Source: Saccoglossus kowalevskii
Lineage: Eukaryota; Hemichordata; Enteropneusta; Harrimaniidae
Length of the DNA stretch: 20,069 nucleotides
Assembly (NCBI RefSeq): GCF_000003605.2
Contig: NW_003137828.1
Span: forward strand, 743,967-764,035
Direction of reading: 5' to 3'
The notes below the pieces were generated by a model. That model made no database searches. It saw nothing but the letters and a program-made list of their open reading frames with translations, and was not told the DNA's origin. Of the stretch, positions 206 to 20,069 are shown piece after piece. Within the stretch, counting starts at the first letter, position 1; every line of letters starts with the position of its first letter. The translations under genes were made by a program, and so were the position numbers.

Positions 206-3200
206 GTAATGCGCTATTCAATTAAATTATTAGACATCCGTTTAGTAGAAATTCATATCACTCGCTGCTATTGGTATATATTATGATACACGATGAATAT
301 ATTTGGTGTTAAAATAGATCATAACGTGTTTTAAAACCTGTATCCATTCACGCATTTTGTTTGAATGGTGTGAATATTCAGATTGAGCTATTCGAAACTA
401 CATTTCCAATTTTTAACATCACATAAACTGTTTAAAAAATGATCTTGTCTGAACGTGTGCTCTAAATAACAACTTTAGATATCAAAGTTGCCTGTTTTAT
501 ACATTTGATAAATGACACAACTAAACGAAACGTAAATCACATTGGTTTGCATCTCCAGAAACGTACGTTTCTGTGCAGAAAGGGCTCATAATTGTGCAAA
601 TGTCCAATCAAAGTGGTGTGAAAATTTGAATAGTTAGTCAGACGTGTCGTTCTTGGTATATTATCTTAACATTCATCTTGCCATTCATATTTATCATGGA
701 TAATATAGTTCTGTTTGTAATGACAATCGAATTCTCGTGCTTGGAAATTTGAAATGGATATATGACGTCATTATTGAATACTGATATTCTACGACTGGTT
801 TAATTTTTCAACTACGTGCTCTCGCTTGCTTAGTTGTTGGAAACTCTGCATATGCAGTGACTAGCCAGTATTTTTTATTTCTTTTGAATATGTCGAGAAG
901 ACAAACTAACAACGTATTTTTTAAATCTTTCATGCAGCTGCAAATCCTACCTCTGATTACTGTGCGTCATGGGGACAAGATTCGTATCGTACTTTTGATG
1001 GCCACGTATATTCCTTCGATGGAGTGTGTACATATATCCTAGCTGCAGACTGTTTCAGTAATACCTTCCAGATTCTAGTCACCAACGACAGAGAATGTTC
1101 TCCTCCTTACTCGCAGTGCGATCGTTCCGTCACCGTTGTCTTAGGATCCGAACAGAAACTTGAACTTTACCGCGGAGACGATGCCGCAGCAGTGAAGCTA
1201 GATGGCATACGACTACATCTGCCAATTCATATCAATGGTTTCATAATAGAGGTAGTGTCCAATTTCATCCTCCTGAGAAGTAATCTTGGTTTTAAACTGA
1301 TTTGGGATAGCCAGGAAAGCATTTATCTTGAACTCGTTAGTGGTGATCTACAGGGCAAAATGTGTGGTCTATGTGGAACGGCTAATGGTAACCAGTTGGA
1401 TGATCTCACAACATCAGACGAAAGAATTTTAAATTTTGGCCAGGAACATGCCTTTGGTCTGTCTTGGAAGGCGCCGGATCGTAAGTTAATACTTGATAAA
1501 ACCTTCTGAATAATTATGCAACTTTAACACGTAGTCTCTCTGGTTCGAACTAAAACGATCTGAAAGGATGTTCTTTATACATGGTGTAAACAATATTGCA
1601 CTTGATCGCGTGTTTACATGTTGTCTAGTTATGACACCAGTTCGGGTAGAGTTCTTTAGGGCCCCTCGCCCATGACCATTATACTAACCTTGCCCACCAT
1701 GCAGAGTGCCCCTCCCAAGTTCAATTGTATATTCTCTTCGGGATAGTTATTTGGAGGGGCATATTACATTGCATTGGGATATGTAGTGTTATAGTCCACG
1801 TTAGGGGTAAAACAATTGTTTTACTTGTATTAAAAATTCAACCTTAGCTGTTAGTATTTCTGAGTTGACCACTTCTTTTCGAAATATGTACATTTCTAAT
1901 GCCGTTTTTGCAACAGGAACATGTCCTGATATCCCACCATCTGGCCCACGATGCACGCAAGTGTTCGTTTCATCAGAATACCAGTCTCAATATTCAGAAT
2001 TTATTGAGCTCCAGAACTACGTCAGAGGTGTCTGTAATCTACTGCAAGGCAATCTCTTCAGCGATTGCCACCATGTACGTATATAAAGTCATTGTTACAC
2101 ATTTTAATCTTCTACCGTATTGCATTCGACAGTATTTTTAATTTGCAAAGAAACTCCATCTCTAGTGCATGGAACGATATAATGTATATTTACAGGGACA
2201 CTCTTGCCTGTTCTTATGCGCCAGTTGTCTTCCATGCGTCGAAGCTTGTACTGCATGCAATGTACAGTTGTATCACTTTTCATCCTCTATATTCAACTTT
2301 TCATCGTAATACATGTAGCCTACAATTTTGAATCCACAAGCGATTACGTGTAAAGTATGGCATCATAGAATCCGTTGTGAAAACTTGAAATATAGTTTCC
2401 TCAAGTTTTCGTAAGAACGACTTTAGAACATAATGGCATACAGTATCAACGATGACAATGTTAATTTTTTCAACCAAAATACATTCATCGCTTCTAAGTA
2501 CATTTCATACAATTTTTATCGATGAGTATCTTTATACAGAAACAGCGTCCGGATTACTTTCGGAAATTCCGTCGCGTTTCGGAAAGTTTTAATTTTCAAA
2601 ACTTTTGAATATTTATTTGTGCTTTTAGGTTAGTGAGGAGGTTATAATAATTTTTCATTTCACTTTAACACTGTTTTTTTCACCCCTCAGACCCCTTTAA
2701 AAAGTCACTTCTGGCCATTATAATGGCCACTATTTTCTTAATGGCCAAAATATTGACCAGTGTTTTTTAAATGGTGGTTTTAATGACCCATGTTTGTTAT
2801 ACTGGTCAGAATAATTACAATTGCTGGATGGTGGAGTTGATGACATTTTTTTTTGATGGGCAGTATAATGGTCATTTTATTTGTCATTATATACATAACA
2901 TGACCAGTATTTTTGTTCATGTCACTAATATAATGGTCCAGAAAAAAACCTACCTCGTGTGAGTCAATATACGTGTGGGAATTTATTTTTTCCAAGTTTC
3001 ACTGGCGCTTGCAAGTACACTTAAATGAAATTTCGCGAATAATACCTCGATCCCCAGTGAAATTTTATAGTAACGCTGATGCCAGTGACTGCTGGTGGAC
3101 TACATAACCTAAAGAGTATTTATATGGTGTTGAATCATAGGACGATTGCAGTACTGCAACTGGCACATCGAGGTATGAATTTGTAATTATTTTACAATGA

Positions 3201-6200
3201 CTTCAATACAATATTAGATACTTTTGTTGTTCATGTAGCAGTCTTTTGGGGGCTTTCGTTTTTTGTTTTTCAAAAATTATATTAATTACAAAACACTGGC
3301 ATTTGCTTTATGTACTATCATACCTATTTTTTTTTAAAAAAATAAATGCGAAAGTTTTTGTTCAGTCGTGGCTCACTGTGTAAGTACTGTTTAATTATCA
3401 TTCATACTTGTCAAATAACAAGCTCAAGTAGGTGTTAATGAGGATTAGCTCCTATGTTTGTTAATACAAGAAAAGATAAACAAAGGTTATTTCCAACTCC
3501 TGAAATCTGCAAAAAACATCAACGTAAACACAGTCCCTCTATTTAGAGGGACTGTGACGTAAATTTGTTTCCATTCATGGCAATGTTTTTAAAATTATTA
3601 ATATAATTTAACTGACTGCAAAATGTTTTTTTTTTTTAATTTTCAAAGATTATGTATATTGTTGTTTTTTTCTCTTTAGATAATACCAGCAATATTGGGA
3701 AGTCTAATTTAGTAACCATGTATGAAATATATATATTAGCCCATAACGTCAAATACCATACAGAATCCCTTTTTCCTGTAAACAAGTATAGATGATGTAT
3801 GCCCAGTGTGCAACAGTTCATTTTCTTTACACACACAAAAAAACTCCCATACTCAAAATAACTTTTAATTTAGCATGGATTTAAACTAAATTTCAATTAA
3901 ATCTAATATTCTTTGCCCATCTTTGAGCCTAATTTGATTTGAATGAGTTCTAGAGATCAATATAAAAGATGTGAACCTTAATGTATGCGCCTAAGGAAGG
4001 AATACACAGAAGACACTTATTAGTAGTATTCACACAGAGCTCTTTAGCAACGGCTAAGAGGTCCAATACCTTAGCTTGTGCTAGAAAAAATGTGCATGAA
4101 CACAGGCTAATAAATACTAAGTACAGAGTAAATCTGGTCAGTCCAAAGCCCCTTAGCACAGGCAAAACAAAACATGCATAAGCGCTTAGCTCGGCTAAAA
4201 AAACAATTGTATTCAATGTTCATTTAGGAGATAAACTACTATATTCATAACTTTTTATTTCGGTTTGCCATTTCCTGCATGACAATCAACGTTAACACAT
4301 ATAGAGAGATTTATTCAAGAAAAAAATAAACTAATGATGAGACTCTGTGCTACTTCCTGTTATTCTGCAATTTGCACTTTCTGAATTTGCTTTGGTATTG
4401 TTTTATAACTGTAGAACTAACCTTCCTTGTTCCTCTAACCATGGAACCATGTTTATAGTTCCATGCACTAACTGAGCAATCAGTTAAGATTTTGCCTATT
4501 CTTAATAAGTTTGGGCGTTCCTTACCCCGTGCTAACCATCGTTTCCTTCTGTGCTTGAACTCAAACATACGAGATTAGCTTAAATCTTAGCCCGTACATT
4601 GTGTAGCATGAACACTACTGTTGAAAATCCAGGGGGCAAATGGGTGAAAATTAAACAAATTATAATGAAGGTGTAATATGCAGTCAGTAAAAGTCTTGGG
4701 CGTTTCTGGGTCAGCCAAATTGATCATGGATACTCTGGCTCAACTTGGACAAAAAAAAAATTAGTCTATATAACGGGAACAGGGGCATGCTACTGTGGGT
4801 ATCCCTTTCAAAAAACCTTAGTTATAATCCTCTACCAAATTAACACCTTAGAGAAACTGATAATAAATCTAGGTCAACACCACTGTTGTATCCTTTCCTG
4901 TTTCATAAGCCAAGCATGGCTGCCAGGGTGTAGCTACACAAAATGAGACAATTTTGTGGTTGGAATATAATCAGAAAAATTAAATTTGATCAAAACTGAA
5001 TGGTCAATTCTATTGATGCGAGTGAAACTAAAAATTAACAGCTTTTATCCCACTATGAAATCAGGAAAGGGAAACAAAAATGGTAAGTTTTCTCTGCAAG
5101 GAAACAAAACTGCCTAAAAGTAAACAATGACCTGTCAAAATTTGTGTAATTATAACAAGTGGATTTTTCATCATATTTAGAACAGATAGCTTAGTGCACT
5201 CGTTATACACTGACCAATGGGAATACTAGTAAACACTGTTTCAGATGTATAAATCTTCTAGGGAGGTTATAACCCACATTGCACATAGGAAACTGGATTT
5301 TCTTTTGTTACGGACAGAAGTTGCATGTCACTGTTTTCCAAGGTCTATGCTTAAATCATAAACATCTGAATAGCATTGCATCATTTTTCAAACTAAACTG
5401 TTTTTATACTTTTAATATCATTTTCTTGATTTTGAAAAAAATATAGAAACAATATTACACTTACCATAATTACTCTATTAGCAGCACATGCGCTTAAGTA
5501 AATTACAGGAATCTTCAATGGTCGAAATAAGTAATATTTCCATGATTTAGTATCCACAAATGTAATTTTAGAGCAATTTTAGGTATTGTATTGGATCATA
5601 ATTAAAATACAATTATTTATTTTGTGAAAGTACCAGGGGATCGATGAAGTTGTACATTCATGGTGGCATTCCCATTGTGGAGGGACTCTATAATTTTGTA
5701 TGTACACAGTATCCTATTTTGACAGACAAAATCATGCAGCTGCCTTGTTACATAACATTCTTTTGTCTCTTGTCTTGTAGGAAGTTAAATCCCCCTATTG
5801 TTCTCAGAAATTAGGTTCCCAAGTACAGCAATGTACTGTCCTAGTCTCTCAAGAGACGAACTGTGTGTATATATGGCACAACCCCTTAATACATTCTGTT
5901 AGTTAAACGATTTGATTTTATTCTGTTGTCTAGATGCACGTTTTCGATATTTATATGTTTTCAATCAGAATGTACCGGGTATCATTTTTTTGGAAGTATA
6001 TCTGAGTTACAAAGGGAAGAAATTAACATATCACAAGATGTCATTTTATCGACATTGCTATTTGTGAGGATAGAAATATGCCAGCATACAGACACCCCAA
6101 ACATGTTTCCAACATTTGTTACAAAGTGTAAAAATAACTGGTCATTGTATACTAATAGCAAACTGAATTATTTTTTGCAGATGACAATTTAAAAAAAGTA

Positions 6201-9200
6201 AATAACTATATATATGGGACGTGAGAAGTTGAAGAACCAGAATTTATGGACGATAAGGGAAGAAAAAAGTTTAACCAGTATTGATGGATGCAATGGTTTA
6301 GCATTTACATGTTTATCAGTTTTACGCTTGCACACATATTTTGAAAGTTCCAAGTGTGTATAGTCACTGTACATTGATTTTCCATATTATTGAAAAAATC
6401 CTGCAGAGATCAATAATAGGAAAAAATTTGACATGCCTAAATCTTAGAGAAAAAATATTTTACACTAGAAAAAGAATAGCACAATAACGATGAGGAGAAA
6501 AATATTTTGCACAGCCCCCTCCTTAAGCTAACCACCTCACAAAAAAACTTGATAAATATCTGGAGGAGTATGACATTGCAAACCTAAAATACTATTACCC
6601 ACTAAAACAGTCTTTATGGCTGTGCACTACATCAAGATTTTTTAAAAACAAAACAAAACATGGCATAATTTTAATATTGCTTACATATACTTGTTTTGTC
6701 TAATGTTTTCATTAATTATTCAATTTCTGTACTTCATGTGTTTGTACACTGAGCTGAACAGATGATGTTTTGAAGCAATGTTTTAATCCCCTCCCTCCCC
6801 CATACGACTTTTTTTACTTTGCAAAGCTGTACCTCTCTGATCATTAGTTGTTTATGCATAGACGGTCTTTGGTTATAAATTATTTACTTTCCAGTCATTT
6901 TTGAAGCGTAAGTCTTTGTCATACTTTCGGCTGTGGTGACTTCCTGTCACTATGCTTTTGTTTCCCTTTGGTTAGCTAAACATATGAACGCTTGTTAAAA
7001 ATCACACTTGGAAGTAAGAGTTTCCAATGGAATAGCAAGCAATCTAATCTATTCCTGAAATTGTTAATTATATATAGTGTTATCTGGAAAAGTAAAACTA
7101 AAGTTCTAGAAATGTGTTATTCAGTTCAAAAAATAAACTGGCTGCATGCAGAATCTTAGAAACAATTGCATGTACATGTAGGAATGGACGGATGTTGCAG
7201 AAGTTTGGGCCTGGACATTCCAGTCGCATTTTTAAAATTATTTTAAATAATGTACGTATTCTTAAACTGTTACATGAGAGGGGGCAGAGCACGAAATAAT
7301 ATTTTCCTTTTGGAAACTATACAAAGATGCGTGTTCCAGTTCAGTAATTCAATACCTTTGATGAGCCATTTTTAATAGCACACTAAGGGCTAGATTTGAA
7401 TAGATTCCTAGTGAGATTGGTGCATTCTTAATTCAAAAAAACTTTTACTGCTAGTAAATTATACCACAGTCACTCTACTAGAACGGTTAGGAAGCGCTAT
7501 TGTTAAAAGGTGTGAACGAGCAGCTTCTGAGAACCTACGCTGGTCTCAAAACTATGACGTAATTGTCATCGGAGGGCGCTATTTTTCTCCATTATTCATT
7601 GCGTTCAATGTTGCTCGAGACGCCCGTGAATTTTTGAAATTGTGCTTTATTTTTACATCAAACTACAATCTCAACTGAACTATGACTAGGAGTGATATTG
7701 TATTTTACAGATGGGCGTTCTTTTGCCATCTTGAAGATGCTTTACTCGAGAAAATCAGTGTTTTGTTGACAGACTCTTTCTCTCGATCTCTAACAGTCTT
7801 ACGGTCCGTAAAATAAACCCCTCGCTCAGTTTAGAAACAATGTTATCGCTAAAAACATTGATGTCTGCAAACCTTTACAATATTCCTTTGTCCATTCTTG
7901 CTATTTTTGTGTGTTTTTATAGTCACTTTATGGCGAAACTTTGCACGTTTTCGGCGTCTATGGAGATGGTCGCCATGTTGCTTTATTGCATGGTTTTCAA
8001 TGGAAGTAATCGGACGAAAGAGATTTTTGATTGTTGTTTTCATACCCCTCCATTCGCTTTATTTGACGACTGATACAAATCCCAAATCCTAGTAGAGTGA
8101 CTGTGATTATACACATGTTTGGTATAATTTATTGTAAAACATTAATATTGTTGTGACAATAGTTTTATACAAAACAGTGAAAATTTCCCAAAATCTTTGT
8201 ATGTGTTGCCAGTGATATGCTAGTTTCTATTATTTAAATATAGGGAGGTAATCCATTACAAAACATCACTGATCCACAGTAGTCTGGTTTCAAGCTACAC
8301 CAAGTCACAGTCCTTAGAGAGACTTTGACCAAGTGCAGGCTAAGATTTAAAGGGGAACCGCTCAATCCCATGGATTGCACCAAAGAATCATGGGACACTA
8401 TTGTTTGTTTACAATGTTAATCTATCTTTTGTTATCCATGATTATTTTAATCCAGAAAGTAAATTTGTTGTGAAATTAATCTTAACTGGAAGGTGCCCCT
8501 TTAAGCTAATCCCAAATGTTTGCATATACCCAATTGTGTTCACTCACAGGGGGGCCCAACAGTTATAGCACGGGCCACAGTGTTGAGGGTCTGTGCACTG
8601 GCTAAGAACACCCAAACTGGTTTCCCAAGGGAGGCAGCAATTATGAATAAACAAACAAACAAACAAACAAATAAACAGCAATGGTACAGTGACATAACTA
8701 CGCTGGTAACCGAAATAAACCAACCACCATATAGTTTTCTCCTTAAATATTTTTTTCATTCTTTTTCCATGTTTCATTGATTTATAATGCTTATTTTTTT
8801 TAATTAATATCACCATTGTTTTCAATTGTTTTTTTAAACCATTGTGGTGCTTCCGATACGAGTTTGCTGATAGTTGATAAAATGGAATTTTTGTGACATT
8901 GATTGGTACACTCAGAAGCAAAACATCACATGTGCAAATTTACATTACACCCCAAACTGCATGCGCGCGCATGCGAAACTCCAAATCTTCGACTTCTGGA
9001 GAAGTCGTCTACTAGTATCCCACGAGTCATTACTCTGTACACGCTTCCACACTGATTGGGTCGCTTTAGTAGAGCATACAACAACTCCAATTTGGTTCGC
9101 GGTCTACGACATGCACTAATAAAACTCTGCATTCTGTAACGCCGTTTTATACTGTTCCTGTGCATCCAAATAAATCGGTCAGTCTTCGCTCGCGTTCGTA

Positions 9201-12200
9201 AACGGCGGCTTAACAAAGCTCACCGACTGATGGCCTGGCCCTCCTAATGCGTGGACGCAATTGGGTCTAGTCAAAATGCAAACATCAACCAGTACTTCAT
9301 GTAGCATGAACACTATAATAATGTTTATTCAACCTTTGTATCGGCAGCATGAAACAGTAATACATATATTTAAATTACATTCATCATTTCTTTTCTATAT
9401 TGTCCAGCATTATAATACCGTGAACAAACAAACATGCCATTCACTGCTAAGTCAGCTAGCTGCACACATGGAGCTCTATGCTAGACCCCCCCCCCCAATA
9501 TAACTTACTGAACCACCCAACACTGTTTTGTACACATGCAGTAGTCGTGGAATATTTTCATATATTTTTTATATTGCATTAAACCATTCATAATAGAGAA
9601 AATAGCAAAATATAAAAATGAAGCAGAGCATCATGGGTATTTTTTAGTTGATTGTCTAAGCCACTTTAAAATCACCTTCCATCGACCCTTCCACATAAAC
9701 TTCTACAGTTTATGAAAAGTTACTGGTTAAGTATTTCAATGTAAAATGTTATAGTTTGGGTGTATTTGAAGACTGAACTTTAGTTTTTTGTCATTGTTAA
9801 AATGGGAATTTTGTTTGTTTGAGCTTAACCCCACTCATAAAGACAGGCTCTTTTTTCGGATTAATAACTCGCAGTTTATGTGACTTTTGGAGTAACTCCG
9901 TGACTTTTTGGAGTAACCAGCTGTTTATGTGACTTTTTTTGGTGGAAAGTCAGTTGCTGAGTATTTTCGGGGTTGCACACTGTTCGAATGTTCAGTAGTG
10001 AATGTCTTGCTTGTTTGTTCAAGGTATTATAATGCTGGACATTGTACTACTTCCTGTTCTTATAAAGGCAGAGTCACATTGTCAGTCCATTTTTATCAAG
10101 AATAATGTCACAGAATGTGCTTGTATTGATTGTCAAGTTTAGTATAGTTATATTCATAACCATTCTTATTCATAATCATAATGGTTAAATTTTCAAATAG
10201 ACATCAAGTACAATGGTATTTTGGGTGATTAGCCTGGGCTCATTTTTGCACAAACTTTGTTAGCACCCGTGATAAGGGTCTAGACCGTATTTTGAAAACA
10301 GGTCATCTTCTAGGTTTAATAACCTATTGCATTACACTATATATTATAAGTCAACAGTATCAAGTGCATGATCTGTTGTGATTTTAAAAGCAAATTAACC
10401 CAAAACTTCATAAATTTTCAAGATGTATAATTCCATATTTCAAATTTTTCAAAATCTTGTATTTTATGTTTATCTACAATTGTACTGGCTTAAAATTGAA
10501 GCAAACTGAAGCGAGGGAGGAAAAAGAGAGCTGTCAATCCCCATGTGCCATTACCGGGTATATCTGTGACATGAAAAAAAATGACCATTTTATTCATGTA
10601 ATGAAAAATAAAATGATCATTATAATACCCATTAACAAAATAGATTGTCACCAACTCCATCATTAAATAAAAAAAAAAACTATTATTCTGACCAGTGTAA
10701 AAATAGTGGTCAATATTTTGACCATTAAAAAAATTCTGGTTGATATTCTGGCCATTAAAAAAAATAGTGGTCATTACAATGGCCAGAAGTGACTTTTTTA
10801 AAGGGGTCCGAGGGGTGAAAAAACAGAGTTAAAGTGAAATGAAAAAATATTATAACCTCCTCACTAACCTAAAAGTATGAACTAATATTCAAAAGTTGTG
10901 AAAATTAAAACTTTCCGAAACGCGACGGAATTTCCGAAAGTAATCCAGACGCTGTTACAGATTATATATGACTTGTCCACCGTAAGTCGTATTTTAAACT
11001 ACTAAAGCGATTATTTTTACTTTTCTGGGAGTATCTATACTTGTTGCAAGTTTCCCAGTAATATAATGATGCACGCTGGTAATATTCACTAAGAATGAAT
11101 TTAAATGAAATAATTTTCTTAAGTGTATATAAAACAAAATTTGAAGCAGTAAATTGATATACTAGTATATGACGTGCGTTTATATGCCTGTGGCGATTCA
11201 ATAACGCCAACCATTTCTGATTTAAAGGTGGTTGATCCATTACCGTACATAACCGAATGCGAGAAGGATGTCTGCTCCTGTAAATTCACCAGTACTCGTT
11301 GCATGTGCAGCACATTTGCAGCCTACGCAAGAGAATGTACGATCCAAGGCATACCATTAGATTGGAGAGGACCTGATCTATGCGGTGGGTACATAATGTT
11401 TCGCTCTCAATTTTCTTTAGGATGTACACTGCATTTTGTATTTCTAAAATTAGTACAATTTCTAGTCGGTTGTACTTTTCACGGCACGTATAACTGAACT
11501 CAATTTGCAACACACGACGTGCAAGTTTGTGGCGCATTTAATCTTTGCTGTTGTATACGAGGAAATGGGAATATATCAGACTAACTTCATATGCTATTTC
11601 CCTTACAGAACTTGAATGTCCGGTTGGAATGGTGTACGATAGCTGTGGTAGTATATGCCCACGTACGTGTCGCTCATCCATGTATATTTGCGAGGACGAC
11701 CAATGTTTGGAAGGATGCCACTGTCCGCCAGGAATGTTTCTCCACAGCGGGCGATGTCTTTCACCCACAGACTGTCCCTGCGATTATCACGGCATTGATT
11801 ATCCAATCGGAACAGTAATACGTTATGATTGCAATGAATGGTACGTAATTGCATTCATTGTTGAACTCTTCATTCACTTATCCACTGCTTACAGTCCTAG
11901 GTTTGGTGCGCTTCGCTCTGGTTTTCTACACATTAAGTTATATCTTAAATTCAACTTTGAATATTTTTTTGAATATATAACATTTATACAAATCAAGCCC
12001 TCCCCGGTAGATGCAAAATGTATACCATATTAATATTAGAATACAATGCCAATAAGTATGCAACCATTGGATTTAAATCTCGCACAAAATGTATATATTG
12101 TCTACAATAATATCTCCATCTATAGTCGTTCGCTTCAGACCCCCCCCCCCTGTTTAACACGTAGTAGGTAACTTTAGTCCTTGGTAATTGTGTTTATTCC

Positions 12201-18200: not shown

Positions 18201-20069
18201 CTCGTAGGTTGAGGGACTATGTGGAAACTTCAATGACAACCAGAATGACGATTTTCTACCACCGTCTGGAGGTTTTCCATTCGCCATGCCCGATCAGTTC
18301 GGCAACAGTTGGAAGGTAAGTTTATTTCCTGTTATATATTTTACCATACTGTGATATTTTTTTATCATTACAAATGCACTTTCTGTTAATAAACCCAGTG
18401 CCCGGTATCACGAATAAGCCAATCCCTACTAAAATGCACGGACGACTTTTGAGATGAAAAAAGAAATAGCCTGACAAGTAGTATCAAAACGGCCTTCTCG
18501 TTCTGCCAGGTACACTGTAAGGACTAGTATACAAGTATATAGTAAGTATACAAGTATATAGTAAGTACATGGTATAAGGTCAGGCCGTGCTCGTATTAAA
18601 CGACACGTGTCTATCAAGGATCTATACTTGAAAAGTACATAAAGAGATCGTTGCATCCACCTTGCACCACGAAGTGTAGTGTTATTCATCAACGCCAACA
18701 CGATGCGCACATTGTTTCAGTAACGGAATAATGAGTATTGTCATACAATTGTGTAATGCTATGATGTACCACTATTTTCTCTACAGATATTAAGCTATTG
18801 CCCAGATGCAGTGGTGATTCCAGATACTTGCTCCCTTCATCCTGCAAGAAAGTCATGGGCACGAAGGAAATGCAGTGTTATCAAGTCGGTTCTATTTAAA
18901 TCGTGTCACAGCGAAGTGCCTTACCATCCTTATTTGACAATGTGTGAATACGACTCGTGTGGTTGCGACATGGGAGGTGATTGTAACTGCCTTTGTACGG
19001 CCATCGCAGCATATGCCCAAGAATGTAACAGTCACGGCGTGCATGTCAGGTGGCGGAACCAAGAGCTCTGTCGTAAGTCAGATATGGAACGGAAACTTGT
19101 TGCATGTTGCTGCTCTCAGACTTAAGTGTTGCTGACGCAGCTCCAGGTTATTAGAGTGTAGTATGTTATTTAAGTTTTAGTTTCGGTGACCGAAAATAAT
19201 AAAATATATGAATCATAATCGAATGAATTTCTCTATCGATGTACATTTTCTCAAGTGTGGATTTTAGCAAAACTGAAGACTTAAAATAATCAATACGAGC
19301 CATTAAATTTTCTACAAATGTTCATATATGAATTTTATAAAACATAAAGATGTTAATATAAGATTCCCTCTCAACGTAACTGTACAACACTAAAATAAAT
19401 CTAAATTTAAATTATTTTGCAGCTATACAGTGTGAAAACAGTTTGGTTTACAGCGAATGCATCTCAGTCTGCAACAAGACGTGTGCGAACCATCATAGAA
19501 TTGGGGACGATTGGCAATGTACGGACACGTGTGTTGAAGGTTGTGCTTGCCCAGAAGATCTTCTCTGGGATGGCTATCGCTGTGTACCCGAATGCCCTGG
19601 GGGAGCCCCGACCCTCACTACCCCATTCAAGACAACGTTGCCGACTACCACGTTGCCGACTACCACGTTGCCGACCACCACCACGTTGCCGACCACCACC
19701 ACGTTGCCGACCACCACCACGTTGCCGACCACCACCACGCCTTGTAGTTGTTGCGAATGGACAGAATGGATTGATGATGAGCATGGTGAAAAGGTGGATT
19801 TTACAGCTCCTGGAGAATTTGAATTAATTGCCGAACTCCAAAACGAATACGAGATTTGTGAAAGCCCTGATGACATTGAGTGTAGATTAGCAATTCCTCC
19901 CCATCTATCGTATGATGAAACAGAACAGTCTGTTAGCTGTAATGTTAACCAGGGGCTAGCTTGTTTTCATGGTGATCAAAACATGTTTCCACCACTGTGC
20001 TATGACTATGAGGTGAGACTTTATTGTTGTACTACACCTTGCATATGTGAAGAAACTACAGCAGCAGCA
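107..20069 (+). CDS. Gel-forming mucin / VWF-like secreted glycoprotein, 18 visible exons, open at both ends
   Basis: Composite entry for the whole gene; exons follow separately. Exons 107-205, 938-1480, 1917-2074, 11228-11384, 11609-11840, 12319-12368, 12650-12978, 13449-13593, 13859-14032, 14281-14445, 14798-15035, 15480-15764, 15938-15984, 16674-16865, 17622-17821, 18208-18315, 18787-19072 and 19423-20069+ join with matching phases and no stop, giving about 1,351 residues (residue 1 = codon at 109). Domains in order: linker (1-38), VWD1, C8, TIL, VWD2, C8, TIL, TIL'/E', VWD3, C8, TIL, Thr/Pro linker (about 1195-1242), WxxW/CysD (about 1243-1338). This is the D1-D2-D'-D3-CysD order of vertebrate gel-forming mucins, where the region drives packing in secretory granules and disulfide-linked multimer formation; that role is inferred here. 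Signal peptide and C-terminus are outside the window. Otogelin or VWF-type relatives are less likely because of the Thr/Pro linker and CysD. Confidence 0.9.
206..937 (+). other. Intron (732 bp)
   Basis: GTAATG donor and CATGCAG acceptor. AT-rich, with no gene, repeat or terminal-repeat structure that I can see. Confidence 0.7.
938..1480 (+). CDS. Exon: complete VWD1 domain (residues 33-214)
   Basis: A single 543 bp exon, acceptor CATGCAG and donor GTAAGT, phase 1 to 1, encodes a whole von Willebrand type D domain. The start motif is [15 protein letters not shown] followed by [14 protein letters not shown], matching the diverged first strand of mucin D1 domains (WG..x.YkTFDG, not the GDPHY of D2 and D3). 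Near the end [17 protein letters not shown] carries the CGLC vicinal cysteines and the Asn/Asp calcium-binding loop. In VWF and mucins the CGLC motif of the propeptide D domains helps intersubunit disulfide formation. The exon finishes in GLSWKAPD, the usual linker into C8. VWD2 and VWD3 are each cut by introns, so the intron-free VWD1 is a structural difference within the gene. Confidence 0.93.
1481..1916 (+). other. Intron (436 bp)
   Basis: GTAAGT donor and CAACAG acceptor. It contains a perfect 9-bp inverted repeat, TGCCCCTCC at 1707-1715 and GGAGGGGCA at 1753-1761, around a 37-base loop; no further element structure was found. Confidence 0.85.
1917..2074 (+). CDS. Exon: C8-1, first half (residues 214-266)
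   Basis: Acceptor CAACAG and donor GTACGT bound 158 bp, phase 1 to 0. The peptide runs from [12 protein letters not shown] to [16 protein letters not shown]. The ...C..L....F..CH ending is the classic first half of the C8 domain, and the second half continues after the intron at 11228. The split falls exactly after CHH, as in other VWD-C8-TIL genes. The donor is normal, so the very long intron that follows is probably still spliced. Confidence 0.88.
2537..2932 (+). repeat. Left terminal inverted repeat of the 8.4 kb element
   Basis: Pairs with 10559-10960 in inverse orientation. Landmarks are TTTCGGAAATTCCGTCGCG (2559-2577), GGTTAGTGAGGAGGTTATAA, CACCCCTCAGACCCCTTTAA and AAAGTCACTTCTGGCCATTA. 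From about 2712 inward it is packed with TGGCCA/TGGTCA/TGACCA hexamers, about nine in 230 bp. Pairing fades after CATGTCAC at 2918-2925. Confidence 0.9.
3522..3563. mobile_element. 28-bp palindromic mini-element flanked by 7-bp target duplication ACGTAAA
   Basis: CACAGTCCCTCTA (3529-3541), two T, then its perfect reverse complement (3544-3556). Directly outside lie ACGTAAA on the left (3522-3528) and ACGTAAA on the right (3557-3563). The ends match those of the 641-bp element at 7465-8105, which also has a 7-bp duplication, so this appears to be an end-only relic or minimal member of that family. Confidence 0.75.
7458..8112. mobile_element. 641-bp MITE-like element with 17-bp inverted repeats and 7-bp target duplication ATTATAC
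   Basis: The left end CACAGTCACTCTACTAG (7465-7481) and right end CTAGTAGAGTGACTGTG (8089-8105) are perfect inverted repeats. ATTATAC occurs immediately outside both (7458-7464 and 8106-8112). The interior is somewhat richer in GC than its surroundings and has only short ORFs, up to 77 codons, with no transposase features. It is inserted within the larger 8.4 kb element. Confidence 0.85.
8299..8334. mobile_element. 22-bp relic of the CACAGTC family flanked by ACCAAGT target duplication
   Basis: CACAGTCCTTAGAGAGACTTTG (8306-8327) is a shortened imperfect palindrome resembling the 28-bp copy at 3529. The 7-mer ACCAAGT lies directly on both sides (8299-8305 and 8328-8334). The identical flank length and similar termini support common origin. 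Confidence 0.65.
8347..8504. mobile_element. 158-bp MITE-like element bounded by TTAA
   Basis: TTAAAGGGGAACC at the left and GGTGCCCCTTTAA at the right are inverted repeats matching at 12 of 13 positions. The outermost TTAA on each side (8347-8350, 8501-8504) could be a target duplication, as in piggyBac- or Kolobok-type elements. There is no coding potential. Terminal homology beyond 13 bp is weak, so the call is tentative. Confidence 0.55.
8648..8676 (+). repeat. AAAC microsatellite
   Basis: A run of AAAC units with one AAAT unit near its end. It creates spurious Thr/Asn/Lys and Phe/Leu/Cys-rich ORFs on the two strands. Confidence 0.9.
8959..9007. repeat. Alternating palindrome GCATGCGCGCGCATGC and adjacent hairpin
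   Basis: GCATGCGCGCGCATGC (8959-8974) is a perfect 16-bp palindrome of alternating purine and pyrimidine. At 8990-9007, CGACTTCT and AGAAGTCG form an 8-bp stem with a GG loop. The surrounding 8930-9250 is GC-richer than the rest of the intron. Confidence 0.8.
9874..9942 (+). repeat. Three imperfect copies of a TGACTTTTTGGAGTAAC unit
   Basis: GTTTATGTGACTTTTGGAGTAAC, GTGACTTTTTGGAGTAAC and GTTTATGTGACTTTTTTTGG follow one another with short spacers. This is a decayed local tandem repeat inside the 8.4 kb element. Confidence 0.6.
10559..10960 (-). repeat. Right terminal inverted repeat of the 8.4 kb element
   Basis: Reverse complement of the left repeat with scattered substitutions and small length changes in T runs. 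It ends ...CCAGACGCTGTTACAG. Inner landmarks GTGACATG (10567-10574), ATGACCATTT, CTGACCAGTG and TGGCCAGAAGTGACTT match the left copy in reverse. Confidence 0.9.
11228..11384 (+). CDS. Exon: C8-1, second half (residues 267-319)
   Basis: This exon completes C8-1 across a 9.15 kb intron. The acceptor is TTTAAAG, with a weak pyrimidine tract, and the donor is GTGGGT, phase 0 to 1. The first residues [18 protein letters not shown] follow CHH in the canonical C8 order CH..V.P..Y...C..D.C.C, and the exon ends in [19 protein letters not shown], the conserved A.YA.EC...G...WR block. The fit of both halves identifies this as the next exon despite the distance. Confidence 0.9.
11609..11840 (+). CDS. Exon: TIL1 domain and start of the following Cys module (residues 319-396)
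   Basis: Acceptor CCTTACAG and donor GTACGT, phase 1 to 2. The peptide starts [20 protein letters not shown] and continues through [18 protein letters not shown] to [15 protein letters not shown], the ten-cysteine trypsin-inhibitor-like pattern that follows C8 in mucins, VWF and zonadhesin. The final CNE-C is completed by the first base of the next exon. TIL domains stabilise the VWD-C8 assembly; protease inhibition is not implied. Confidence 0.92.
11841..12318 (+). other. Intron (478 bp)
   Basis: GTACGT donor and CATTTCAG acceptor; includes a run of C near 12139-12148. The TIL1 reading frame stays open by chance into the intron to 12033. No other feature seen. Confidence 0.88.
12319..12368 (+). 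CDS. Micro-exon: CxCxxGxWxC module closing D1 (residues 396-413)
   Basis: A 50 bp exon with acceptor CATTTCAG and donor GTGAGT, phase 2 to 1. It encodes [16 protein letters not shown], the short C.C..G.W.C.....C tail after TIL that leads into the next VWD. It is paralogous to the 47 bp exon at 15938-15984, with the same phases and the same motif. It is easily missed by gene finders; without it the cysteine pairing of D1 and the reading frame into VWD2 would fail. Confidence 0.88.
12650..12978 (+). CDS. Exon: VWD2, N-terminal part (residues 413-522)
   Basis: Acceptor TTTTTATAG and donor GTACGA, phase 1 to 0. The start [20 protein letters not shown] is the canonical VWD opening with GDPHY, followed by [10 protein letters not shown]. 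The later strands [20 protein letters not shown] and [11 protein letters not shown] are typical VWD beta-strand repeats. It ends after SSMYLK, mid-domain, and continues at 13449. Confidence 0.93.
12979..13448 (+). other. Intron (470 bp) within VWD2
   Basis: GTACGA donor and TTTTGTAG acceptor. It contains a small perfect hairpin, CATGAAAT (13132-13139) and ATTTCATG (13143-13150). No gene seen. Confidence 0.88.
13449..13593 (+). CDS. Exon: VWD2, C-terminal part with CGLCG (residues 523-571)
   Basis: Acceptor TTTTGTAG and donor GTAAGA, phase 0 to 1. [19 protein letters not shown] is the VWD 'G..v.WD....v.i' strand pair. [19 protein letters not shown] gives the intact CGLC pair and calcium loop. 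In VWF and mucins the second D domain also carries this CXXC-like motif needed for multimer formation, so this protein keeps it in both D1 and D2. Confidence 0.92.
13859..14032 (+). CDS. Exon: VWD2 tail and C8-2 first half (residues 571-629)
   Basis: Acceptor ATTGCAG and donor GTAAGT, phase 1 to 1. The peptide reads [15 protein letters not shown], the VWD exit corresponding to 'afgnsWk', then [20 protein letters not shown] and [15 protein letters not shown], the first half of C8. The tryptophan usual in the 'fgnsWk' exit is replaced by phenylalanine. The junction codon is completed by the exon at 14281, giving [12 protein letters not shown]. Confidence 0.9.
14281..14445 (+). CDS. Exon: C8-2 second half (residues 629-684)
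   Basis: Acceptor GCCTTTCAG and donor GTAAGT, phase 1 to 1. [21 protein letters not shown] and [19 protein letters not shown] show the CH..V.P..YY..C.YD.C.C and YA.EC...G...WR signatures of C8. It joins directly to TIL2. Confidence 0.92.
14446..14797 (+). other. Intron (352 bp)
   Basis: GTAAGT donor and CCATACAG acceptor. Nothing else recognisable. Confidence 0.88.
14798..15035 (+). CDS. Exon: TIL2 (residues 684-763)
   Basis: Acceptor CCATACAG and donor GTAAGT, phase 1 to 2, the same phases as the TIL1 exon. The peptide [20 protein letters not shown] leads to [19 protein letters not shown] and [17 protein letters not shown], the TIL pattern. A nearer AG at 14803-14804 would put the exon out of frame with the C8-2 exon, so 14798 is preferred. 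Confidence 0.91.
15036..15479 (+). other. Intron (444 bp)
   Basis: GTAAGT donor and TTCATTTAG acceptor. AT-rich, no feature seen. Confidence 0.88.
15480..15764 (+). CDS. Exon: D' region, Cys tail of TIL2 plus a second TIL (TIL') (residues 763-858)
   Basis: Acceptor TTCATTTAG and an unusual donor GTTCGT, phase 2 to 2. It opens with [14 protein letters not shown], the same C.C..G.W.C tail as the micro-exon at 12319. It then runs straight into [18 protein letters not shown] and [18 protein letters not shown] to [16 protein letters not shown], a further TIL. Two consecutive TIL/E units without an intervening VWD is the hallmark of the D' segment between D2 and D3 in VWF and gel-forming mucins, and fixes the identity of the following domain as D3. 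Confidence 0.92.
15938..15984 (+). CDS. Micro-exon: E'-like CxCxxGxWxC module before D3 (residues 858-874)
   Basis: A 47 bp exon, acceptor AATTTCAG and donor GTAATT, phase 2 to 1, encodes [15 protein letters not shown]. It matches the 50 bp exon at 12319 in length, phase and C.C.G.W.C.....C spacing, and links D' to D3. Confidence 0.87.
15985..16673 (+). other. Intron (689 bp) between E' and VWD3
   Basis: GTAATT donor and ATGTTTAG acceptor. AT-rich; no repeat or gene identified. Confidence 0.87.
16674..16865 (+). CDS. Exon: VWD3, N-terminal third (residues 874-938)
   Basis: Acceptor ATGTTTAG and donor GTACGT, phase 1 to 1. [19 protein letters not shown], then GSCEYVLTR and [20 protein letters not shown], are textbook VWD. 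The '[16 protein letters not shown]' block closely resembles D3 of vertebrate MUC2/MUC5-type mucins as I know them. It leaves phase 1 into the exon at 17622. Confidence 0.93.
16866..17621 (+). other. Intron (756 bp) within VWD3
   Basis: GTACGT donor and AATTGTAG acceptor. A T10 run lies near 17262-17271. No gene seen on either strand. Confidence 0.87.
17622..17821 (+). CDS. Exon: VWD3, middle part, ends at a GC donor (residues 938-1004)
   Basis: Acceptor TAATTGTAG, phase 1 to 0. The segment after the junction ([19 protein letters not shown]) is diverged, but [19 protein letters not shown] and [20 protein letters not shown] are the conserved VWD strands just before the G-L-C-G loop. Continuity with VEGLCG at 18208 requires the exon to end after AAG at 17821, where the next bases are GCGAGT, a GC donor. 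Without splicing, translation reaches a TGA at 17864. The only upstream GT in good context (17778, AGAG|GTACAT) would delete conserved residues and break the phase. Confidence 0.85.
17822..18207 (+). other. Probable GC-AG intron (386 bp) within VWD3
   Basis: Donor AAAG|GCGAGT and acceptor CTCGTAG. The intron position is fixed by VWD homology on both sides (KLEPLHKGK then VEGLCGNFN) in phase 0. In-frame read-through stops at 17864-17866. A +2-frame ORF to 18039 lies across the intron but looks like chance. Confidence 0.8.
18208..18315 (+). CDS. Exon: VWD3 calcium loop, EGLCG variant (residues 1005-1040)
   Basis: Acceptor CTCGTAG and donor GTAAGT, 108 bp, phase 0 to 0. [19 protein letters not shown] retains the calcium-binding N-x-N-D-N-x-N-D-D loop, and FGNSWK is the canonical VWD exit. 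The first cysteine of the CGLC pair is replaced by glutamate, unlike D1 and D2 of the same protein. Confidence 0.92.
18316..18786 (+). other. Intron (471 bp)
   Basis: GTAAGT donor and CTCTACAG acceptor. It contains a two-copy 19-bp tandem repeat at 18527-18564; otherwise featureless. Confidence 0.88.
18527..18564 (+). repeat. 19-bp tandem duplication
   Basis: GTATACAAGTATATAGTAA occurs twice in direct succession (18527-18545 and 18546-18564) inside an intron. Confidence 0.95.
18787..19072 (+). CDS. Exon: complete C8-3 domain (residues 1041-1136)
   Basis: Acceptor CTCTACAG and donor GTAAGT, 286 bp, phase 0 to 1. Here C8 is in one exon, whereas C8-1 and C8-2 are each split in two. The peptide shows [52 protein letters not shown] and [18 protein letters not shown], covering all C8 signatures in order. 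The extra NC-C around GDCNCLC keeps the spacing of the family. Confidence 0.93.
19073..19422 (+). other. Intron (350 bp)
   Basis: GTAAGT donor and ATTTTGCAG acceptor. AT-rich; nothing else seen. Confidence 0.88.
19423..20069 (+). CDS. Exon (runs off the end): TIL3, Thr/Pro linker, WxxW/CysD domain (residues 1136-1351+)
   Basis: Acceptor ATTTTGCAG, entering in phase 1; open to the window end. TIL3 (residues 1137 to about 1188) reads [19 protein letters not shown] to [19 protein letters not shown] Thr/Pro stretch follows, with TLPTT and TLPTTT repeats (1207-1240), a likely O-glycosylated mucin segment. Then comes a WxxW (Mucin2_WxxW, CysD) domain: [12 protein letters not shown] with W1248 and W1251, [19 protein letters not shown] and [11 protein letters not shown]. 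Its length of roughly 96 residues suits the family. WTEW fits the C-mannosylation motif. CysD domains are thought to self-associate and set mucus gel pore size. After [10 protein letters not shown] the Thr-rich sequence resumes, so further PTS sequence probably continues downstream. Confidence 0.93.
19635..19736 (+). repeat. Coding tandem repeat (2 x 15 bp, 4 x 18 bp) in the Thr/Pro linker
   Basis: Two copies of ACGTTGCCGACTACC are followed by four identical copies of ACGTTGCCGACCACCACC (19665-19736). In the mucin frame they read TLPTT twice and TLPTTT four times. All units stay in frame, so copy-number change lengthens the O-glycosylation linker without breaking the CysD domain. Lack of any substitution among the 18-bp units indicates recent expansion or homogenisation. 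Confidence 0.95.

Follow-up and report, generated by a model that had tools for sequence, protein, structure and literature searches.

A genome-wide family of large inverted-repeat elements without recognisable genes in Saccoglossus kowalevskii, with one copy in an intron of a mucin-type gene

A large inverted-repeat element in an intron of a mucin-type gene

In a 20,069-nucleotide stretch of the hemichordate Saccoglossus kowalevskii genome (hereafter the window, meaning the whole stretch analysed; positions 743967-764035 of contig C2922, NW_003137828.1), an intron of a mucin-type gene contains an 8,416-bp element bounded by inverted arms of ~395 bp, and this element belongs to a repeat family found elsewhere in the genome. 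We consider it to be a large non-autonomous DNA transposon driven in trans (with a probability of roughly 85%), which indicates that this 8-kb insertion is carried as a passenger in a real mobile family, and is not a gene-bearing or viral element. Its main features are as follows:

2075..11227, forward strand: intron of the mucin-type gene, interrupting the C8 domain (9,153 bp; GT...AG)
2536..2540, forward strand: left target site duplication, ACAGA (identical over all 5 bp to 10957-10961)
2541..10956, forward strand: whole element, 8,416 bp (~7.6 kb once two nested insertions and their target copies are subtracted), with ends common to 38 genomic termini and an interior colinear with other copies
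2541..2932, forward strand: left inverted arm (L type), with the 32-base terminus AACAGCGTCCGGATTACTTTCGGAAATTCCGT (from arm alignments, tree and terminus search)
2933..10558, forward strand: interior without recognisable genes (0/6 frames with a Pfam match at E<=1; 22% of indels divisible by 3)
10559..10956, reverse strand: right inverted arm (R type; from arm alignments and tree)
10957..10961, forward strand: right target site duplication, ACAGA (identical over all 5 bp to 2536-2540)

The host gene is recognisable from VWD, TIL and Mucin2_WxxW domains matched by Pfam (three window frames tested), the last of these being preceded by an 18-bp tandem repeat that codes a TTTLP-type spacer (19635-19739 of the window). 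When the exons on either side of the intron were joined, the C8 domain (PF08742) scored 75 bits, compared with 58.3 bits for its second half alone and no match for its first half. Subtracting the element together with one of the two target copies leaves an intron of 732 bp, so that a first-pass annotation, made from the letters of the window alone, was correct in proposing that an intron of ~730 bp had been enlarged to 9.15 kb with both splice sites intact.

The same annotation had described inverted arms of ~400 bp around a large element, and blastn indeed aligned the two arms at 82% identity (403 columns, E 1.7e-110). It had placed the ends at 2537 and 10960, where there is an element, but both edges were four bases off: the termini common to other copies place them at 2541 and 10956 (AACAGCGTC...GACGCTGTT), and the extra bases are part of the duplicated target ACAGA.

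The element is one copy of a genome-wide family

Across the genome searched (572 Mb in 4,830 contigs), the 32-base terminus occurred 38 times at three or fewer mismatches, against zero occurrences for the reversed pattern used as a control. The surrounding DNA was read for 36 of these 38 termini, leaving out two that run into contig starts (C1421 and C1886). Arm searches in the same genome returned at least 43 rows for the left arm and at least 42 for the right, largely at the same places (lower bounds, the best 40 of 55 candidates having been scored in each search), and the first letters of the 25 ends listed were AACAG in 24 cases and AATAG in one. The ends thus mark a repeat family. The first-pass annotation had proposed searching the genome with them for copies that enclose a transposase, polymerase or integrase gene; none was found among the fetched copies.

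Four copies have both ends: the window copy and those on contigs C3391, C361 and C4304. Between the same arms, the interior is colinear in C3391 (locus L010, a second two-ended copy with its interior in the same order as the window) and C4304, and present in pieces in C361. More broadly, the window interior aligned in 16 of 20 fetched loci (not in L013, L016, L017 and L028), including 11 in which at least 1.5 kb aligned, with order kept apart from insertions and deletions; two of these 11 (L014 and L026) are near-duplicates of one locus (98%), while L024 and L025 keep merely ~90 and ~600 bp of interior. Interior substitution between the window copy and those in L010, L011, L012, L020 and L023 was 5.8-7.8%. 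The terminal strings did not occur in the papers searched, nor the exact 27-mer in IMG/VR, nor the left arm in plasmids, these searches not covering animal repeat libraries; within that scope, the earlier suggestion of an undescribed family is supported.

Exact duplications lie directly outside the ends in three of the four two-ended copies (ACAGA in the window, ATAT in C3391 and ATAC in C361), and the flanks of the insertions are AT-rich. The flanks of C3391 (L010:200-308 and 9060-9080) lie in a high-copy common repeat. Among the best 40 of 70 candidates scored for its joined flanks, two were its own halves and the other 38 all cross the junction at 73-77% identity, and each of the three unoccupied repeat copies that were read (L048-L050) has a single ATAT at the junction. 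The C3391 copy was therefore inserted into this repeat, duplicating at least 4 bp. Taken together, the family, the target duplications and the absence of Pfam matches described below support the first-pass reading of a non-autonomous mobile element with long terminal inverted repeats.

The interior has no recognisable genes

Coding sequences were sought by comparing six-frame translations, with X at stops, to Pfam at E<=1. None of the 24 frames of the window, L010, L011 (up to its N run) and L019 copies had a match; this includes all six frames of the window element, in which the first-pass annotation had likewise recognised no transposase. A check of the method on three L020 frames (one strand) recovered a reverse transcriptase at 1.3e-14, from a retrotransposon nested in that copy, together with a weak FixQ match (E 0.72, below the cut-off). 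The remaining copies were judged by listing their frames of 80 or more, or 90 or more, amino acids and comparing seven of these with Pfam. Apart from the transposase-like gene of C4041/C3830 discussed below, the long frames tested there are accounted for by retrotransposons nested in L020 and L027 and by an exon of tRNA-synthetase type in L025. Insertions and deletions between copies had a length that is a multiple of three in only 22% of cases, with no sign of reading-frame constraint. Given this, and the lack of Pfam matches, the interior was probably already gene-less when the copies spread.

Several loci were considered as autonomous relatives and set aside. Three with partial arm matches (C1211, C155 and C2446) and two with extra termini (C669 and C1419) break off at N or at a contig end. 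In C254 (L035), C1341 (L038) and C3325 (L039) the sequence leaves the arm after ~79, 180 and 130 bp, respectively, and no transposase was recognised among frames of at least 80 amino acids. Among the other partial arms, L042, L046 and L047 have N at or just past the matching part, L041 and L045 have 200-400 bp of unmatched DNA and then an N run, and L040, L043 and L044 continue into unrelated DNA with no N.

Left and right arms form separate lineages

The two arms of the window copy are not uniformly alike: in an ungapped pairing, the outer 212 nt match at 86%, followed by 88 and 64 nt at 74% and 77%. Both include tandem units:

2712..2774, forward strand: 30-bp tandem units of the left arm, with TGGYCA/TGACCA motifs (from repeat and motif counts)
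10684..10785, reverse strand: 30-bp tandem units of the right arm (from repeat and motif counts)

The TGGYCA/TGACCA motif, which was picked after viewing the arms, occurs seven times per window arm, or 17.6-17.9 per kb versus 0.66 per kb in the interior.

In a tree of 25 arms (omitting L031, which was too short, and with bootstrap values that had not fully settled), an L clade of 12 rows (98/94) stood apart from an R clade of 10 rows (98/96). In both the window and C3391 the left arm falls in the L clade and the right arm in the R clade, and both C361 arms and one C4304 arm lie outside the two clades. We also compared the inner part of the arms in a second set of 19 chosen arms, labelled L or R from the adjoining interior side (by similarity alone for L013 and L017, and in the 25-arm tree also for L016, L028, L030 and L032). 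The inner arms of a single copy differ by 29% in the window, 23% in C3391 and 24% in C361. The mean difference was 4.7% over 45 pairs of L arms, 6.9% over 21 pairs of R arms and 21.8% over 68 L-R pairs drawn from different copies. Sisterhood of the two arms of one copy was rejected for the window and C3391 (p 1.6e-5 and 4.5e-6, under the model). Over the outer 210 columns the two types are nearly alike, their majority letters agreeing at 202 of 210.

The L and R arms are thus separate lineages, and since their divergence is older than the spread of the family, the 82% identity between the window arms does not date the insertion. The short end branches of the window arms (0.025 and 0.03 in the 25-arm tree) and the 5.8-7.8% interior substitution point to an insertion younger than the divergence of the arms. 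More generally, the divergence between the two arms of one such element can badly overstate its age.

Nested insertions and neighbouring repeats

Two smaller elements lie within the window copy:

7458..8112, forward strand: nested 641-bp element (7465-8105) with a 17-bp terminal inverted repeat (TIR), CACAGTCACTCTACTAG, and a 7-bp duplication, ATTATAC (7458-7464 and 8106-8112); absent from six copies compared
8347..8504, forward strand: nested 150-bp element (8351-8500) with the TIR AGGGG[A/C]ACC and a TTAA duplication; absent from four copies compared

The copies without the 641-bp element (L010, L011, L019, L020, L023 and L027) have a single ATTATAC, and those without the 150-bp element are L010, L014, L020 and L023. 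A 53-bp inverted pair (87%) around 545 bp, at 9396-10046 of the window, is perhaps an older nested fold-back element, and is partly absent in L010. Reverse transcriptase frames of the long interspersed nuclear element (LINE) type are found in L020 (5150-6592, an insertion within the element copy) and L027 (2903-5808). A 157-bp tandem repeat adjoins two loci (L029:629-2613 and L035:3804-4156).

Proposed mobilisation in trans and alternative explanations

If the element is a non-autonomous transposon, a transposase encoded elsewhere would recognise its conserved outer ends, and the TGGYCA/TGACCA motifs deeper in the arms may serve as extra transposase binding sites, by analogy with the arm repeats of Galileo. 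The whole ~7.6-kb unit would be mobilised and inserted into AT-rich DNA with a 4-5-bp stagger; the window copy landed in the C8 intron, leaving the splice sites intact, and took up its two small insertions. By inference, the enzyme is of the DDE cut-and-paste type and works in trans, it binds the ends and the motifs, and the insertion is neutral for the host gene.

Several observations weigh against mobilisation in trans of a single large unit. Among the fetched copies we found no transposase-bearing copy and no partner gene, and many copies are interrupted by N runs or stop where their contig ends, so that an autonomous one could be hidden. The duplication length varies (5, 4, 4 and, in the more diverged C4304, none clean), and the 9-10 bases left of the C3391 duplication align poorly to repeat copies that are themselves ~75% alike, so that this copy supports at least 4 bp without proving the length to the base. 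The empty sites that the first-pass annotation had suggested seeking were obtained for C3391, as unoccupied repeat copies, but none was found in the assembly for the window site, whose joined flanks matched only their own halves and gave two weak partial matches. Finally, that annotation had held that ends recurring independently, with differing inner boundaries, would speak against one long element, and this was partly observed: in at least 10 fetched loci (L016, L028, L035, L038, L039, L040, L041, L043, L044 and L045) the arm gives way to unrelated DNA at differing depths. Because no second arm was seen near these, whereas the interior is kept in order in 11 of the 20 loci, we read the arm-only loci as truncated copies.

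Among the alternatives, the one that survives best, though we consider it unlikely, is that the element arose by deletion or decay from a gene-bearing one, possibly of Polinton/Maverick type, with an interior made of the remains of lost genes. Its big size, its long arms and the numerous indels between copies would fit such an origin, as would autonomous copies sitting in N runs. In the four copies searched in six frames each, however, Pfam detected nothing of a transposase, polymerase or integrase, which runs counter to the first-pass idea of a "shell of a gene-bearing element", and copies of the family have a common non-coding interior at ~6-8% substitution, so that any loss would precede the spread. 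For a Polinton in particular, the ends should be AG, and here they are AACAG. The duplications are likewise 4-5 bp and not the 6 bp given for Polintons (excerpt of PMC10045372).

It is more doubtful still that the family is driven by an undescribed transposase superfamily, whose enzyme would tell the left from the right end by inner-arm sequences and tolerate ~8 kb of gene-less cargo. If true, such discrimination would explain why the L and R lineages stay unhomogenised.

A specific candidate for the transposase of the arms, a CACTA/EnSpm-like protein encoded by a 992-amino-acid open frame beside the C3830 arm, appears very unlikely to be the right one. The frame is ~0.9 kb from that arm, and a similar one is near a cut arm in the near-duplicate locus C4041, but it lies outside the arm, and the C3830 arm lacks its last ~13 bases. 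Moreover, the other 12 contigs matching the protein are not among the arm or terminus contigs, and a 9-kb stretch around its relative in C2225 has no exact AACAGCGTC end. The C3830 frame is thus best read as a neighbour and was rejected as a partner. The frame itself, which we take to be CACTA/Plavaka-like along with its C4041 counterpart, is intact in C3830 (L033:2514-5489, minus strand) and broken into pieces in C4041 (L026:1142-4144, minus strand), where one piece has a weak DUF4218 match below the cut-off; the C2225 relative has 1006 amino acids (L034:3198-6215).

An assembly artefact is highly improbable: the assembly does have many N runs beside arms, but the window copy is free of N, as are L010, L018 and L019, the same order recurs in independent contigs, the target duplication is exact, and the nested insertions have unoccupied sites. 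Close to negligible, despite the partnerless arms at several loci, is a chance arrangement in which ordinary intron DNA is flanked by two short elements that resemble arms, are independent of each other and point in opposite directions. This is already contradicted by the colinear two-ended copies (with the interior recurring between these arms, in order in C3391 and C4304 and in pieces in C361) and by an exact duplication outside the pair with none beside each arm singly.

Comparison with known systems

Miniature inverted-repeat transposable elements (MITEs) are under ~1 kb long, which does not fit an element of 8,416 bp. Polinton/Maverick elements are large, with arms of hundreds of bp, AG ends and virus-type genes (protein-primed polymerase B, retroviral-type integrase and capsid); our element is like them in size and arm length, and differs in the absence of Pfam matches in all 24 frames and in its duplications of 5, 4, 4 and none. 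With Foldback and Galileo elements, the latter belonging to the P superfamily, it shares long arms with internal tandem repeats (here the 30-bp units of both arms). In Galileo, these arm repeats hold transposase binding sites (excerpt of PMC3688188), the arms are 98-100% identical within a copy, the target duplications measure 7 bp, and a copy whose arms diverge is a chimera in which the flanks do not match (excerpt of PMC3573991). In contrast, the window and C3391 copies, both well-covered and two-ended, have divergent arms yet matching flanks, the duplications are 4-5 bp rather than 7 bp, and no P-type transposase was found in the 24 frames searched with Pfam.

Sola2 elements have AT-rich 4-bp duplications such as ATAT, and TIRs of 12-21 bp in the amoebozoan families described (excerpt of PMC3627910). 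The ATAT and ATAC duplications would fit this pattern, whereas ACAGA does not, the arms of ~395 bp are at odds with TIRs of that length, and no Sola2 transposase was linked to the element. Ginger2 elements have 4-bp duplications in AT-rich RTATAY targets, TGTNR ends and TIRs of 50-180 bp (excerpt of PMC2836005). The 4-bp AT-rich duplications are again alike, but the ends of our family are AACAG (24 of 25, with one AATAG) and not TGTNR.

The closest likeness is to large non-autonomous DNA transposons, with which the element shares terminal inverted repeats, target duplications, many copies, a lack of genes and presumed mobilisation in trans, and from which it differs by L and R arms kept as separate lineages. 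Gene-less DNA transposon families are entered under "-N" names in repeat libraries, and 7.6-8.4 kb seems long for a gene-less unit. The element is thus ordinary in kind, large for its type, and notably stable in the identity of its left and right arms.

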